Below are positions 431 through 5,910 of a stretch of DNA of 45,669 bases, in pieces. Under the pieces are notes generated by a model. That model was not told where the DNA came from. It saw nothing but the letters and a program-made list of their open reading frames with translations, and ran no database searches. This DNA is from Cycloclasticus sp. GTDB lineage: Bacteria; Pseudomonadota; Gammaproteobacteria; Methylococcales; Cycloclasticaceae. How positions within the stretch are numbered: position 1 is the first letter of the stretch; each line of letters starts with the position of its first letter. The stretch is taken from the NCBI GenBank assembly GCA_012959695.1, contig DUCS01000003.1:1-45669 (forward strand), in the 5' to 3' direction. The position numbers and the translations under genes are program-made.

Positions 431-1927
431 ATGTATCAAATACCTAGAGCAGAATGGTACGACTTAACCCGTGCGACCAACTGGACATATAGCTATGTGA
501 CGGAAGAGGAAATGTTTCCAGAAGAAATGAGTGGAGCGCGTGGTATTCCTATGGAAGAATGGGAAACATATGATGAGCCGTATAAAGTTACATACCCAGA
601 ATATGTCGCTATTCAGCGCGAGAAAGATGCCGGTGCTTATTCAGTTAAAGCAGCGCTAGAACGTGATGCGTATGTTGATCGTGCAGACCCAGGTTGGATT
701 TCAACCATGATCGCGCATTATGGTGCGATTGCGGTAAATGAATACGCAGCGAGTTTAGCTGAAGGCAGAATGGCGCGTTTCGCTAAGGCGCCTGGTAACC
801 GCAATATGGCTACTTTTGGCACCTTGGATGAAAACCGTCATGGACAAATCCAACTCTTCTTCCCACACGCAAATATCAAACGTAGCCGTCAATGGGATTG
901 GGCGCATAAAGCGATGCAAACAAATGATTGGGCATCTATAGCTGCTCGAGCATTTTTTGATGACATCATGTTATGTCGTGATGCGGTTGCCGTGTCTATT
1001 ATGTTGACCTTTGGTTTTGAAACTGGCTTTACTAATATGCAGTTCTTAGGTTTAGCAGCAGATGCGTCTGAAGCAGGTGACCATACGTTCGCTAGCTTGA
1101 TTTCAAGCGTGCAAACAGATGAAGCGCGTCATGCTCAACAAGGTGGCCCGTCATTAAAAATCTTAATTGCCAATGGGCATAAAGATGAAGCACAAAAATT
1201 AGTCGATATATCAATTTGGCGTGCATGGAAGTTGTTCTCTGTGTTGACCGGCCCGATTATGGATTACTACACACCGTTAGAACATAGAAGTCAGTCATTT
1301 AAAGAATTTATGGTCGAATGGATTATTATCCAATTTGAACGTCAATTGGCTGATTTAGGTTTAGACGCACCTTGGTTCTGGGAAGACCTAACCAATGACC
1401 TTGATGTCACTCATCACGGTATGCACTTAGGTGTTTGGTATTGGCGTCCAACTGTGTGGTGGAACCCAGCCGCTGGTGCAGGGCCAGAAGAACGTGAATG
1501 GCTTGAAGAAAAATACCCAGGTTGGAATAAAACATGGGGTAAATGTTGGGATGTGATTACTGATAATCTAAATAACGGTCGCGAAGACCTTACGTTGCCA
1601 GAAACACTACCGTACGTTTGTAACATGTGCCAATTACCAATAGTTGGTACACCAGGCAATGAATGGAATGTGCAAGATTACCCGCTAGAATTTGAAGGTC
1701 GTTTATACCACTTTGGTTCAAAAGCTGACCGCTGGTGTTTCGAGCAAGATCCTGAACGCTATAAAGAGCATCAAAGCTTAATTGACCGTTTCTTATCAGG
1801 CCAAATCCAACCTGCTGATTTACCAGGCGCGTTAGCTTATATGGGCTTAGGTCCGGGTGAGATGGGTAAAGATGCACATGATTATGCATGGGCAGCGGCA
1901 TTCAAAAAACAAGCAGAAGTAGCTTAA
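431..1927 (+). CDS. tmoA: Toluene-4-monooxygenase-type hydroxylase, alpha (catalytic) subunit
   Basis: A 498-residue soluble diiron monooxygenase large subunit. All six iron ligands fall at the positions used for toluene-4-monooxygenase: Glu104, Glu134 and His137 (DENRH), Glu197, and Glu231 and His234 (DEARH). Thr201, Asn202 and Gln228 around the diiron site are also present. The C-terminal part carries the YHS-like segment with a CNMC pair near residue 400. The subunit would insert one O2 atom into an aromatic ring, giving a phenol or cresol, in a complex with the gamma and beta subunits. Position 103, a pocket residue recalled as Gly in toluene-4-monooxygenase, is Asn here, so regioselectivity cannot be assumed. 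The start has a strong GAGGAGA site. An isoprene or alkene monooxygenase is the main alternative; meta-cleavage neighbours favour an aromatic substrate. Confidence 0.93.
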   Translation: MYQIPRAEWYDLTRATNWTYSYVTEEEMFPEEMSGARGIPMEEWETYDEPYKVTYPEYVAIQREKDAGAYSVKAALERDAYVDRADPGWISTMIAHYGAIAVNEYAASLAEGRMARFAKAPGNRNMATFGTLDENRHGQIQLFFPHANIKRSRQWDWAHKAMQTNDWASIAARAFFDDIMLCRDAVAVSIMLTFGFETGFTNMQFLGLAADASEAGDHTFASLISSVQTDEARHAQQGGPSLKILIANGHKDEAQKLVDISIWRAWKLFSVLTGPIMDYYTPLEHRSQSFKEFMVEWIIIQFERQLADLGLDAPWFWEDLTNDLDVTHHGMHLGVWYWRPTVWWNPAAGAGPEEREWLEEKYPGWNKTWGKCWDVITDNLNNGREDLTLPETLPYVCNMCQLPIVGTPGNEWNVQDYPLEFEGRLYHFGSKADRWCFEQDPERYKEHQSLIDRFLSGQIQPADLPGALAYMGLGPGEMGKDAHDYAWAAAFKKQAEVA

Positions 1928-1974: not shown

Positions 1975-2235
1975 ATGGCAGCGTTTCCAATTAACTCAAA
2001 TTTTCAAGGCGATTTTGTAATGCAACTAGTCCCTGTTGATACCGATGACACAATGGATCAAGTGGCAGAAAAATGTGCTTACCATTCTGTTAATCGTCGT
2101 GTAGCACCACAACCAGATAAAGTTATGCGCGTTAGGTTACACAATGCAAGTGACAATTTTCCGCGTGATATGAAGGTTTCTGATGCTGGCTGGAGGCCAA
2201 CAGAAACGTTAGACATTATCTTTGCAGATCAATAA
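1975..2235 (+). CDS. tmoB: Toluene-4-monooxygenase-type hydroxylase, gamma subunit
   Basis: An 86-residue protein matching the small gamma subunit of toluene-4-monooxygenase in length and in the core AYHSVNRRVAP, PDKVMRVRLH and NFPRDMKVSDAG segments. The gamma subunit has a ubiquitin-like fold and packs on the outside of the alpha-beta hydroxylase dimer. It carries no cofactor and there are no membrane segments. It is the second of five genes in the operon, with an AAGGAGA ribosome-binding site 7 bases before ATG, and is followed 17 bases later by the ferredoxin gene. The order alpha-gamma-ferredoxin is characteristic of the toluene, benzene and isoprene monooxygenase operons and distinguishes them from phenol hydroxylase operons. 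Confidence 0.92.
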   Translation: MAAFPINSNFQGDFVMQLVPVDTDDTMDQVAEKCAYHSVNRRVAPQPDKVMRVRLHNASDNFPRDMKVSDAGWRPTETLDIIFADQ

Positions 2236-2252: not shown

Positions 2253-2591
2253 ATGGCGTTTGAAAAAATATGTACCCTAGATGATGTTTGGGAAGGTGAT
2301 ATGGATGCTTTCGAGACTGAAAATGGTACACAAGTATTGGTATTAGGTATTGATGGTGGAGACTTAAAGGCGTTTCAAGCAATTTGCCCACACCAAGAAA
2401 TTGAACTGGTTGAAGGTGAATTTGACGGTAAGGTGTTGACCTGTAAAGCACATTTGTGGCAGTTTGATACCGCAAATGGCCAGGGTTTGAATCCTACCGA
2501 CTGCAAAATCGCAGAATACCCTATAAAAATCGAAGACGAAGATGTGTTTGTAAACGTTGATGGTATTGAACCGTTTACAGCACACTCATAA
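2253..2591 (+). CDS. tmoC: Rieske [2Fe-2S] ferredoxin of the monooxygenase
   Basis: A 112-residue soluble Rieske protein, the usual length for TmoC. The cluster ligands are visible as Cys45-x-His47 (CPHQE) and Cys64-x2-His67 (CKAHLW), matching the toluene-4-monooxygenase ferredoxin positions as I recall them. It carries electrons from an NADH-dependent flavoprotein reductase to the diiron hydroxylase. No such reductase gene follows in this operon, so the ferredoxin must be reduced by a protein encoded elsewhere. The ribosome-binding site (AGGGGCAG) is weaker than those of tmoA and tmoB. There is no signal peptide, as expected for a cytoplasmic protein. Confidence 0.94.
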   Translation: MAFEKICTLDDVWEGDMDAFETENGTQVLVLGIDGGDLKAFQAICPHQEIELVEGEFDGKVLTCKAHLWQFDTANGQGLNPTDCKIAEYPIKIEDEDVFVNVDGIEPFTAHS

Positions 2592-2603: not shown

Positions 2604-2912
2604 ATGACAAACTTAAAAGATGCATATAAACAAAATAAAGTAGGCCCCATTTTTAATGGTGGTGAAGTGGCTCAAGCAGCGATTGAAGCTGCAGAGTGGG
2701 ATAACCCAGATAAAGAAATTATCGTTGTTGATAAAGGCGCGTACGTAAGGATCTCAGCAGAGCAAGAGATGATAATTACACGCGCATCAATGGAAGAAGC
2801 ATTAGGCCGTGAATTTTTAATGAGTGAAATTGAAATTCATTTGGGTTCTATGGCGGGGCAGATTGAAGTAACGCCTGAACAAATTCGTTTTTTCTTTGAA
2901 AAAACGCTCTAA
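2604..2912 (+). CDS. tmoD: Monooxygenase effector (coupling) protein
   Basis: A 102-residue protein of the cofactorless effector family (TmoD/MmoB/DmpM). Family-type segments are VGPIFNGGEVAQAAIEAAEWDNP near the N-terminus region 13-34, the AYVRISAEQEMIITR strand region, and a Leu-Gly-Ser-Met-Ala-Gly stretch near residue 78. The protein docks on the hydroxylase and controls oxygen activation, product release and regioselectivity. It sits 12 bases after the ferredoxin gene and 14 bases before the beta subunit gene, which suggests a single polycistronic message. The ribosome-binding site is AAGAGAAA. Fourth place in the operon matches the canonical A-B-C-D-E order. Confidence 0.92.
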   Translation: MTNLKDAYKQNKVGPIFNGGEVAQAAIEAAEWDNPDKEIIVVDKGAYVRISAEQEMIITRASMEEALGREFLMSEIEIHLGSMAGQIEVTPEQIRFFFEKTL

Positions 2913-2926
2913 GTAAGGAAAATATT

Positions 2927-3919
2927 ATGAGTGATTCAGCAGAAACATTAAAACCGTTAAAAACGTGGTCTCATCTTTCAAAGCAAAGAAAAAGACCGAG
3001 TGAATATGAAATCGTTTCAACCAACCTTCATTTCCATACTAATAACAAAGAAAAACCGTTTGAAGTTGGACAAGGTGCAAAAATGAACGATTGGTACTTA
3101 AAGTACCGCAATAATAGCCCGTTGACACATGATGATTGGGATGCCTTTAGAGATCCGGAGCAATTGGTTTACAGAACTTATAACATCCTTCAGGAAGGTC
3201 AAGAGGCGTATGTGACGGGTTTGCTTAACCAGTTTAGCGAACGCGGTAATGACCAGATGATTCCTAAAAAATGGGCGGAAGATTTGGCACGTTTATACAC
3301 GCCATCGCGTTATATATACCATGCAATGCAAATGATTTCTTCTTACCTGCATCAAATGTCTCCAGCAAGCACGATTTCAAACTTATCAACATACCAAGCT
3401 GCTGACCATTTACGTTGGGTTACGCACAGTGCTTATCGTACTTGTGAGTTAGGTAAAACTTGGGCCGATGTTGGTTTTGGTGAAAAAGAACGTGAGCACT
3501 GGGAAAATGATGCAGCATGGCAAGGTTTTAGAGAGCTTGCAGAAAAAGCGTTGGTGGTTTGGGACTGGGCAGAAGCGACGGTCGTTCTAGAAGTGGTGTT
3601 GAAACCAGCGGTATCAGCTGCTGTGCAAAAACAGCTTGGTTTAGCGGGTGCTGAAAATGGCGATACATTATTGTCATTACTTAACGATGCGCAAATGCGT
3701 GATGCTGAACGCCATCAACGTCAAACGAAGTCTTTGATGGAATTTGCGATGGCCAATGAAGCCAATGCAACGACTATCCAAGGCTGGGTTGATAAATGGC
3801 AGCCATTAGCAGATAAAGCAGTAGAAGCATACTGTGCTGCATTAACGGATTTACCAGATGCTACTGAAGAAGCGAAAGCTTATATGACTTCTGCTAGACA
3901 GTCATTAGGCTTAAAGTAA
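2927..3919 (+). CDS. tmoE: Toluene-4-monooxygenase-type hydroxylase, beta subunit
   Basis: A 330-residue protein of the ferritin-like beta-subunit family, near the usual length for TmoE. It lacks the paired ExxH iron motifs, as expected for the structural beta chain. Typical segments include KTWSHL near the N-terminus, RPSEYEIVSTNLH, the DAERHQRQ helix and a tryptophan-rich middle. It forms the dimer core of the hydroxylase with the alpha subunit. The ribosome-binding site TAAGGAAA lies well placed before ATG. The gene ends 15 bases before a strong intrinsic terminator, so it is the last gene of the transcript, and the reductase normally encoded next (tmoF) is absent. Confidence 0.92.
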   Translation: MSDSAETLKPLKTWSHLSKQRKRPSEYEIVSTNLHFHTNNKEKPFEVGQGAKMNDWYLKYRNNSPLTHDDWDAFRDPEQLVYRTYNILQEGQEAYVTGLLNQFSERGNDQMIPKKWAEDLARLYTPSRYIYHAMQMISSYLHQMSPASTISNLSTYQAADHLRWVTHSAYRTCELGKTWADVGFGEKEREHWENDAAWQGFRELAEKALVVWDWAEATVVLEVVLKPAVSAAVQKQLGLAGAENGDTLLSLLNDAQMRDAERHQRQTKSLMEFAMANEANATTIQGWVDKWQPLADKAVEAYCAALTDLPDATEEAKAYMTSARQSLGLK

Positions 3920-4045: not shown

Positions 4046-5068
4046 ATGAGTAACTTAAAATTAAGCGTTTTAGATCAATCGCCTGTACATGATAACCAGC
4101 CGGAATCACATGGTTTATTTACCACTGTAGAGTTGGCTAAAGCCTGCGATGAAGCGGGGTATCACCGTTATTGGGTGGCAGAGCATCATGACACGCCGGG
4201 CTATGCCAGCCCGTGCCCAGAGATGATGGTAAGTAATGTTGCACATGCCACAAAGCGCATTCGTGTGGGAAGTGGAGGCGTCATGTTGCCGCACTATGCA
4301 TCGTTTAAAGTAGCAGAAACATTTAAAATGCTAGAAGCCTTTCACCCAGGGCGCATCGATGTAGGTGTTGGCCGCGCGCCAGGTGGTAACCCTATTTCTT
4401 CCGGTGCGATTTCAGCACCTAGACAAACGATTCCGCCTGAGTATTACCCAAATCAAACACAAGATCTGATTGGCTATTTGAAAAATGACTTACCGTCTGA
4501 TCACCCATTTAGCAACGCTACAGTTGTCCCTAGTGACGTAGCAGCTCCACCGGTTTGGATGCTGGGATCTAGTGATGGCAGTGCTGAAATGGCAGGCGTT
4601 TTAGGTGCAGGTTTTGTATTGGCGTTGTTTATCGGTACGCACGATAGACCACCTGAGATTATTCAGCGTTATCGGGATGCCTTTCAAACGGGTGGTAGTC
4701 TTGAAAAACCAGAAGCGATTATTGCTGTTGCTTCTATATGTGCAGATTCAAAAGAAGAAGCAGAGTTTATTGCGGCAAGTCATACTTATTGGAAGGTCCA
4801 AGCGTTTAGGCACGGCACACGAGATGCGCTTTTCCCGCCAGAAATAGTGATGGATAAGAAGAAACAGTTATCACTATCTGACCAAGCGTATTACGATGAG
4901 ACATTGGCAACAATGGTGACGGGTACGCCGGAACAGTGTCAGTCTCGCTTAGAGCAAATAGCTGACTTATATAAAGTGGATGAGTTGATGATTGTGAATG
5001 TGACGCATTCGTTTGCACCACGAATTGAGTCATATAAAAAATTAGCAGTACAATTTAGTTTAAATTAA
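4046..5068 (+). CDS. LLM-class flavin-dependent oxidoreductase (MsnO8-like)
   Basis: A 340-residue protein of the bacterial-luciferase-like fold. Diagnostic segments are LSVLDQSPV at the N-terminus, YWVAEHHDTPGYASPCPE, VGSGGVMLPHYASFKVAE and HPGRIDVGVGRAPGG. These place it in the luciferase family oxidoreductase group 1 (MsnO8-like), flavin- or F420-dependent enzymes with varied, often unknown substrates. It is cytoplasmic, with no signal peptide. It lies between the monooxygenase terminator and a meta-cleavage hydrolase gene that starts 14 bases after its stop, so it is probably cotranscribed with the hydrolase. A role in aromatic breakdown is suggested only by this position. The ribosome-binding site is poor (TTAGAG). 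Confidence 0.85.
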   Translation: MSNLKLSVLDQSPVHDNQPESHGLFTTVELAKACDEAGYHRYWVAEHHDTPGYASPCPEMMVSNVAHATKRIRVGSGGVMLPHYASFKVAETFKMLEAFHPGRIDVGVGRAPGGNPISSGAISAPRQTIPPEYYPNQTQDLIGYLKNDLPSDHPFSNATVVPSDVAAPPVWMLGSSDGSAEMAGVLGAGFVLALFIGTHDRPPEIIQRYRDAFQTGGSLEKPEAIIAVASICADSKEEAEFIAASHTYWKVQAFRHGTRDALFPPEIVMDKKKQLSLSDQAYYDETLATMVTGTPEQCQSRLEQIADLYKVDELMIVNVTHSFAPRIESYKKLAVQFSLN

Positions 5069-5082
5069 TTTAGGAGCTTAAG

Positions 5083-5910
5083 ATGAGCACAAACCCAGAA
5101 ATGGCAAGCACAATACAGACAGGCGCATTTAAAACCAACTACCATGACGTAGGCGAAGGTTCGCCAGTATTTATGATTCATGGCTCAGGCCCCGGTGTTA
5201 CAGCATGGGCAAACTGGCGTTTGGTGATTCCTGCGTTAGCCAAACACCACCGTGTGATTGCGCCGGATATGGCAGGTTTTGGCTATACCGAACGTGTAGA
5301 TGGCTACGAGTACACGATGGATAACTGGGTACAACACGCCATTGATCTAATGGATGCCTTGGATATTGAAAAAGCCCACTTGGTGGGTAATTCGTTTGGC
5401 GGTGGTTTGGCAATTGCATTAGCCATCAAACACCCAGAACGCGTTAGCCGTTTATTATTAATGGGTGCAGCAGGGGTTAGTTTTGAATTAACGCCAGGTT
5501 TGGATGAAGTATGGGGCTATGAACCATCAGTTGCCAATATGCGCAAGATGATGGATTTATTCGCCTATAACCGCGACTTGGTGACAGACGAACTGGCTGA
5601 GTTGCGTTACAAAGCGAGTATTCAACCAGGTTTCCAAGAGTCCTTTAGTGCGATGTTTCCCGCGCCTCGCCAGCGTTGGGTAGAAGCATTAGCCAGCGAC
5701 CCTGAAGATATTAAAAAAATTCAGCACGAAACCTTAATGGTTCATGGGCGTGAAGATATTGTCGTGCCGCCGATTACATCGACAACATTATTCGATTTGA
5801 TTCCTAATTCACAGTTACACATGTTTGGCTGTTGTGGGCATTGGACACAAATTGAGCACAATGCACGCTTCATTGAGTTGGCGTTAGACTTTTTTGCTGA
5901 AGAAAAGTAG
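5083..5910 (+). CDS. Alpha/beta hydrolase, 2-hydroxymuconate-semialdehyde hydrolase type
   Basis: A 275-residue C-C bond hydrolase of the XylF/DmpD/TodF family. The oxyanion-hole region HGSGPGVTAWANW near residue 33 is typical. The nucleophile is Ser104 in GNSFGGG, the acid is the Asp in HGREDIVVP near residue 229, and the base is the His in GHWTQIEH near residue 258. It would hydrolyse the ring-cleavage product of catechol or methylcatechol to a 2-hydroxydienoate plus a carboxylic acid. This hydrolytic branch complements the oxalocrotonate branch encoded at the start of the window. It has a TAGGAGC ribosome-binding site 14 bases after the flavin oxidoreductase gene. Exact ring substituent preference cannot be read from sequence. 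Confidence 0.88.
   Translation: MSTNPEMASTIQTGAFKTNYHDVGEGSPVFMIHGSGPGVTAWANWRLVIPALAKHHRVIAPDMAGFGYTERVDGYEYTMDNWVQHAIDLMDALDIEKAHLVGNSFGGGLAIALAIKHPERVSRLLLMGAAGVSFELTPGLDEVWGYEPSVANMRKMMDLFAYNRDLVTDELAELRYKASIQPGFQESFSAMFPAPRQRWVEALASDPEDIKKIQHETLMVHGREDIVVPPITSTTLFDLIPNSQLHMFGCCGHWTQIEHNARFIELALDFFAEEK

Follow-up and report, generated by a model that had tools for sequence, protein, structure and literature searches.

The question raised by this locus is whether an asparagine at position 103 of a Cycloclasticus toluene monooxygenase alpha subunit, directly before the iron ligand Glu104, marks an enzyme with unusual substrates or an unusual mix of products. Cycloclasticus is a marine degrader of dissolved aromatics, and if Asn103 set the products, it would be a one-residue handle on regioselectivity and would help to predict the cresols formed in oil plumes. 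The residue is encoded in a stretch of 45,669 nucleotides (hereafter the window), which is the entire contig C3 of a 1.7-Mb, 44-contig Cycloclasticus genome (80% complete). The features of the window that bear on the question are collected in Table 1. A toluene monooxygenase has already been listed among the genes of a Cycloclasticus MAG (PMC12510462).

Table 1. Positions in the window of the monooxygenase genes, the two codons under discussion and the neighbouring genes.
Feature	Positions	Strand	Basis
3' end of the 2-oxo-3-hexenedioate decarboxylase gene (dmpH), truncated at the contig edge	1..200	+	Aligned to the gene end matching TIGR03218 in G012
4-Oxalocrotonate tautomerase of the meta-cleavage pathway, 63 aa	213..404	+	Ortholog in G012 matches TIGR00013 and PF01361
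Hydroxylase alpha subunit (TmoA/TouA type), 498 aa	431..1927	+	Pfam PF02332; YHS match below cut-off
Asn103 codon, AAT	737..739	+	
Glu104 codon, GAA (iron ligand)	740..742	+	
Hydroxylase gamma subunit (TmoB)	1975..2235	+	Pfam PF06234
Rieske ferredoxin (TmoC type)	2253..2591	+	Pfam PF00355
Effector protein (TmoD type)	2604..2912	+	Pfam PF02406
Hydroxylase beta subunit (TmoE type)	2927..3919	+	Pfam PF02332; NCBIfam NF045802 far under cut-off
Luciferase-like (LLM class) oxidoreductase	4046..5068	+	TIGR03558 above cut-off; PF00296
Alpha/beta hydrolase, meta-cleavage-product hydrolase-like	5083..5910	+	NF045632 and TIGR03343 the best NCBIfam matches, both below cut-off; PF00561

The register of the active site was established by alignment, in which E104, E134, H137, E197, E231, H234 and T201 of the window's alpha subunit keep the numbering of TouA and TmoA, the ligand role of Glu104 being taken from toluene 4-monooxygenase (T4MO) (PMC4200526). 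The first-pass annotation had placed Asn at 103 with the six ligands and Thr201 in the T4MO register, and this was confirmed by the ORF and the alignment; the residues that it had given for the reference enzymes, Gly103 for T4MO and Glu103 for toluene/o-xylene monooxygenase (ToMO), agree with the solved sequences. A sequencing or assembly error behind Asn103 was rejected, since Asn103 is shared by all nine distinct same-genus sequences and every one of these codons is AAT.

On the basis of its sequence, the gene product is assigned to the ToMO subgroup of soluble diiron toluene/o-xylene monooxygenases, as the alpha subunit. The alpha subunit scored 962 bits against ToMO, 842 bits against T4MO and 129 bits against PhN, and its identity was 77.7% to TouA and 70.0% to TmoA. 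The Cycloclasticus clade had a support of 100/100 and joined ToMO, Marinobacter, L036 and L037 with a support of 100/99 in a 53-row tree and of 100/98 in a 35-row tree made without column 103; the T4MO branch is long and its exact placement is less certain than the ToMO grouping. ToMO (TouABCDEF of Pseudomonas sp. OX1; PDB 1t0q and 2inc), the neighbour on the tree, shares with the window the six ligands, Thr201 and the compared pocket residues I100, A107, F176, M180, L192, F196, T201 and F205, the sole difference among the compared sites being at 103 (Glu there, Asn here). T4MO (Pseudomonas mendocina KR1; PDB 3dhg and 5tds) has the fold family, the ligands and the numbering in common with the window's alpha subunit, but it carries Gly103, has Ile at position 180, where the window's protein and ToMO have Met, and falls outside the clade of ToMO and Cycloclasticus. 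A phenol hydroxylase identity (DmpN/PhN type) was also considered and ruled out by the low score against PhN as compared with ToMO; the phenol hydroxylase-type genes of the window's genome sit on another contig (C14).

The first-pass annotation had set the enzyme in a T4MO frame, and the shared numbering of the ligands and Thr201, together with the identity of 70.0%, would suit a strictly para-hydroxylating toluene 4-monooxygenase. However, the nearest solved relative by score is ToMO, and a T4MO identity was rejected on the score, the identity, the tree and Met instead of Ile at residue 180, so that a strict T4MO is very unlikely; the pathway genes described below speak against it as well.

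Two further sets of relatives were compared with the window. In Cupriavidus cauae PHS1 (Btxm2) and on pBN2 of Paraburkholderia aromaticivorans BN5 (the counterpart L044), the monooxygenase genes follow immediately on that for 4-oxalocrotonate tautomerase, as in the window, within a meta-cleavage operon that also encodes an enzyme of the phenol hydroxylase type; L044 differs from the window by Ala103, by an alpha identity of 72.2% and by a reductase gene of its own after the beta subunit. The Marinobacter salarius plasmid pHL2708Z5 (L043) carries genes A-E in the order of the window, with an alpha subunit 77.9% identical to the window's, but it has Ala103, a reductase gene, and its phenol hydroxylase genes on the opposite strand.

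The hydroxylase subunits A, B and E, the Rieske ferredoxin and the effector are co-encoded in the window, as judged from the Pfam matches, and the ToMO gene set likewise spans A-E. In the ORF list of the window, no reductase gene (tmoF) was found between tmoE, which ends at 3919, and the next gene, which starts at 4046, and this is a difference from ToMO; in genome G012 a reductase gene was likewise not found 3' of tmoE. The closest relative of the L044 reductase elsewhere in the window's genome (49% identity) was located at 10799-11797 of contig C32 of that genome (G000; locus L074). Because a reductase gene does not follow tmoE and such a relative is present on C32, the monooxygenase may borrow its reductase. 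Next to the reductase on C32 lie a DsbA-fold protein and a Rieske ferredoxin, and this neighbourhood resembles polycyclic-aromatic dioxygenase clusters. ORFs sized like the luciferase-like oxidoreductase and the hydrolase of the window (4046-5910) also come after tmoE in G012.

The pathway context was read from G012, whose alpha subunit is 97% identical to the window's. The genes there run in the order of phenol hydroxylase genes, 2Fe-2S ferredoxin, catechol 2,3-dioxygenase, HbpS-like protein, 2-hydroxymuconic semialdehyde dehydrogenase, hydratase, acetaldehyde dehydrogenase, aldolase, decarboxylase, tautomerase and tmoABCDE, with tmoB-E and two small ORFs among the phenol hydroxylase genes placed by their sizes and by alignment to the window. 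The same locus is apparently split in the window's genome, in which contig C14 aligns to the G012 locus (L072) up to 9626 and the window aligns from 12148, about 2.5 kb of L072 being missing between the two; positions 1-849 of the window correspond to 12148-12998 of L072 (88% in the alignment). The gene order of the btx operon of Cupriavidus cauae PHS1 matches that of G012 (PMC10394343).

Catechol 2,3-dioxygenase was above the cut-off in all seven same-genus genomes searched, two of which, the window's own included, are less than 90% complete. With the pobA model, none of the seven passed the cut-off (weak matches in two of them), as compared with one of 14 control genomes, and with the pcaH model no match at E <= 1e-10 was obtained in the seven genomes, as compared with two of 14 controls. 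The host of T4MO uses the p-hydroxybenzoate/protocatechuate route, and this route was not found in the seven same-genus genomes with the pobA and pcaH models. Since catechol 2,3-dioxygenase was present in 7/7, pobA was above the cut-off in 0/7 and pcaH was matched in 0/7, toluene carbon most likely flows via methylcatechols, as with ToMO, and not via p-hydroxybenzoate, as far as pobA and pcaH, without pchCF, can tell. The meta-cleavage operon and the seven genomes without pobA above the cut-off or a pcaH match further argue against a strict T4MO. For one MAG, a study of the genus describes a route to benzoate by way of a toluene monooxygenase, together with a toluene 2-monooxygenase and genes for the meta-cleavage of catechol (PMC12510462).

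For the comparison of residue 103, 54 distinct matches spanned the position, and three of them of the phenol-hydroxylase type (L001, L003 and the second L043 match) were excluded; the remaining 51 distinct locus sequences, together with TouA and TmoA, gave the 53-row set, into which TbuA1 and IsoA did not enter by name. Of the nine sequences with Asn103, L034 and L035 are partial, and the matches at L004, L025, L026 and L070 do not include residue 103. A close set was defined as the 35 sequences with an identity of at least 65% (nine same-genus sequences and 26 others). Six peptide patterns from the window's alpha protein, a query that favours near relatives, gave 22 loci in the genome contigs and no match in the viral contigs. 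The sampled class and phylum searches had matches in 5 of 369 and 3 of 398 genomes, respectively, three family searches took in 7, 3 and 2 genomes, respectively, and 14 of the 31 plasmid matches were taken in (H10, H13 and H17-H31 were left out). The alpha gene was present in 9 of the 18 same-genus genomes listed, the window's genome included. Two contigs labelled Acinetobacter phage MD-2021a (H32 and H33) carry a gene annotated as tmoA with 26% identity, and these records perhaps contain host or plasmid DNA. Five of seven genomes (G489, G844, G845, G846 and G847, all of one family) have at least two alpha-subunit matches each, which fall into one set with about 70-76% identity to the window's alpha subunit and another with about 50-56%; in G489, G846 and G847, two alpha-subunit matches lie about 5 kb apart.

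In the 53-row set, Asn103 was found in 9/9 same-genus sequences and in 0/44 others, the residues of the latter being Ala (17), Gly (9), Pro (6), Val (6), Thr (2) and Gln, Leu, Ile and Glu (1 each). The possibility raised in the first-pass annotation, that Asn103 might be common in characterised T4MOs, thus finds no example among the 44 non-genus sequences. Within the close set, position 103 is occupied by A, G, P, N, Q or E, with an entropy of 2.13 bits (rank 28 of 498); F176, L192, F196, T201 and F205 are invariant, and A107 (34 A, 1 G), I100 (27 I, 8 L) and M180 (28 M, 5 F, 1 T, 1 I) are less variable than 103. At least 8 changes of residue 103 were counted on the 35-row tree, made without column 103, and at least 14 on the 53-row tree, in which this column was included. 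The alpha subunit of pHL2708Z5 (L043, 9001-10497) has Ala103 despite an identity of 96.4% to TouA. Because the position is variable, differs as Ala and Glu even at this identity and has changed repeatedly on the trees, unusual residues are to be expected there; by this comparison, Asn103 is unusual, yet it stands at a position of just that kind. The best explanation is that the enzyme is ToMO-like, probably a broad monoaromatic monooxygenase, and that Asn103 is a clade-specific residue at a tunable position on the edge of the pocket, and we hold it with good confidence.

Neutral drift at a tolerant position, with Asn103 having no measurable effect, overlaps this explanation as its limiting case and is quite possible without being probable. 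The occurrence of Ala and Glu in proteins 96.4% identical fits it; the position is not free, however, being restricted to A, G, P, N, Q and E in the 35 close sequences and holding no basic or aromatic residue in any of the 53.

What residue 103 does was judged from relatives. In ToMO, E103 and F176 are described as bordering the 'para' side of the pocket (PMC4411060, PMC3962191), and E103G and F176A together as removing the hindrance at the 'para site' (PMC4411060). According to a review, ToMO E103G alone had a wild-type-like regioselectivity on 2-phenylethanol, which is in line with neutral drift, and F176 variants shifted the selectivity on this substrate and were improved by the addition of E103G (PMC3962191). 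For T4MO, the structure of a variant with Leu103 has been solved (3ri7). The wild-type T4MO forms p-cresol almost exclusively, and the Leu103 variant reportedly shifts the toluene products toward o-cresol. Given the para-side location in ToMO and the solved Leu103 variant of T4MO, an effect of residue 103 on the products is possible.

Btxm2 of PHS1 is described as yielding o-, m- and p-cresol, like ToMO, and the DNA of the PHS1 btx gene cluster as nearly 100% similar to its BN5 counterpart (PMC10394343). The BN5 alpha subunit (L044) has Ala103, and Btxm2 probably has it too, as read from L044 and not from the PHS1 sequence. From the cresols of ToMO and Btxm2, enzymes with Glu103 and, probably, with Ala103 would therefore give similarly mixed products, which again fits neutral drift. 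On this evidence, residue 103 by itself is a poor predictor of isomers, and a bulky residue there can matter. In the literature searched, no activity or product data were found for any Asn103 enzyme. The suggestion of the first-pass annotation, that Asn103 could point to a different substrate or cresol mix, is thus kept in part: among the sequences compared, Asn103 is rare and belongs to one clade, but position 103 is variable and, as ToMO E103G and Btxm2 indicate, predicts products poorly when taken alone. The main lesson is corrective, in that residue 103 alone is not readable as a substrate or isomer signature in the toluene monooxygenase family.

Whether Asn103 was selected was judged from the seven full-length same-genus genes. 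Selection of Asn103 in Cycloclasticus with an altered function, in which the amide would contact Glu104, an active-site water or a hydroxylated intermediate and would shift cresol ratios, second hydroxylation or substrate range, is unlikely. It would account for the fixation of Asn103 in 9/9 sequences of the genus and its occurrence in 0/44 elsewhere, although the seven genes are only 78.0-95.4% identical in DNA, and it is consistent with the para-side location in ToMO, with the effect in double mutants (PMC4411060, PMC3962191) and with the solved T4MO structure with a variant at 103. However, the sequences form a single clade on the tree, so Asn103 may be fixed simply by inheritance; the same genes share 418 of 498 residues without any change (338 codons vary synonymously only and 80 alter the residue), so one more conserved residue is unremarkable; codon 103 is AAT in 7/7, so there is no synonymous change to show that Asn was kept there (both Asn codons were seen at 12 of 15 invariant Asn sites); and changes at 103 are frequent elsewhere on the trees. 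The codon pattern in these genes fits inheritance from a single ancestor with ordinary purifying selection, special selection on Asn103 being neither shown nor excluded. A further reading, likewise improbable, takes Asn103 as the functional mark of a ToMO lineage peculiar to Cycloclasticus, with the side-chain amide binding the first hydroxyl group or shifting the position of Glu104 or of the active-site water; if this were true, the products or substrates (for example efficient double hydroxylation, or larger alkylaromatics) would differ from those of enzymes with Gly, Ala or Glu.

Against the best explanation, that of a ToMO-like enzyme with a clade-specific residue, it can be said that Asn103 is among 10 residues which the genus has fixed and the 26 other close sequences lack, which could reflect selection, that position 103 is not inert, since E103G improved the F176 variants of ToMO and the Leu103 variant of T4MO was thought worth solving, and that the operon has no tmoF. 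According to the best explanation, the enzyme would most likely hydroxylate benzene, toluene and related monoaromatics with a relaxed regioselectivity; as the gene content suggests, the resulting phenols would undergo a second hydroxylation, catalysed by the same enzyme or the neighbouring phenol hydroxylase, before cleavage through the meta pathway. The product mix is likely to differ from that of T4MO, since the enzyme appears ToMO-like. Asn103 would cause at most a modest shift in the isomer ratio or in the tolerance of para-substituted substrates, being uncharged and of a size between Ala and Glu. Read in this way, the protein is an ordinary toluene-oxidising enzyme that has one uncommon residue at the pocket's edge and does not represent a novel enzyme type.

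The alpha subunit of L043 is a natural near-relative of ToMO that is useful for probing position 103. T131 and S213 of the alpha subunit are likewise genus-fixed and occur in none of the 26 other close sequences; T131 is near E134 and H137, and S213 is near positions 208 and 211, which are described for T4MO as gating substrate access (PMC4200526). These two residues could matter as much as Asn103.
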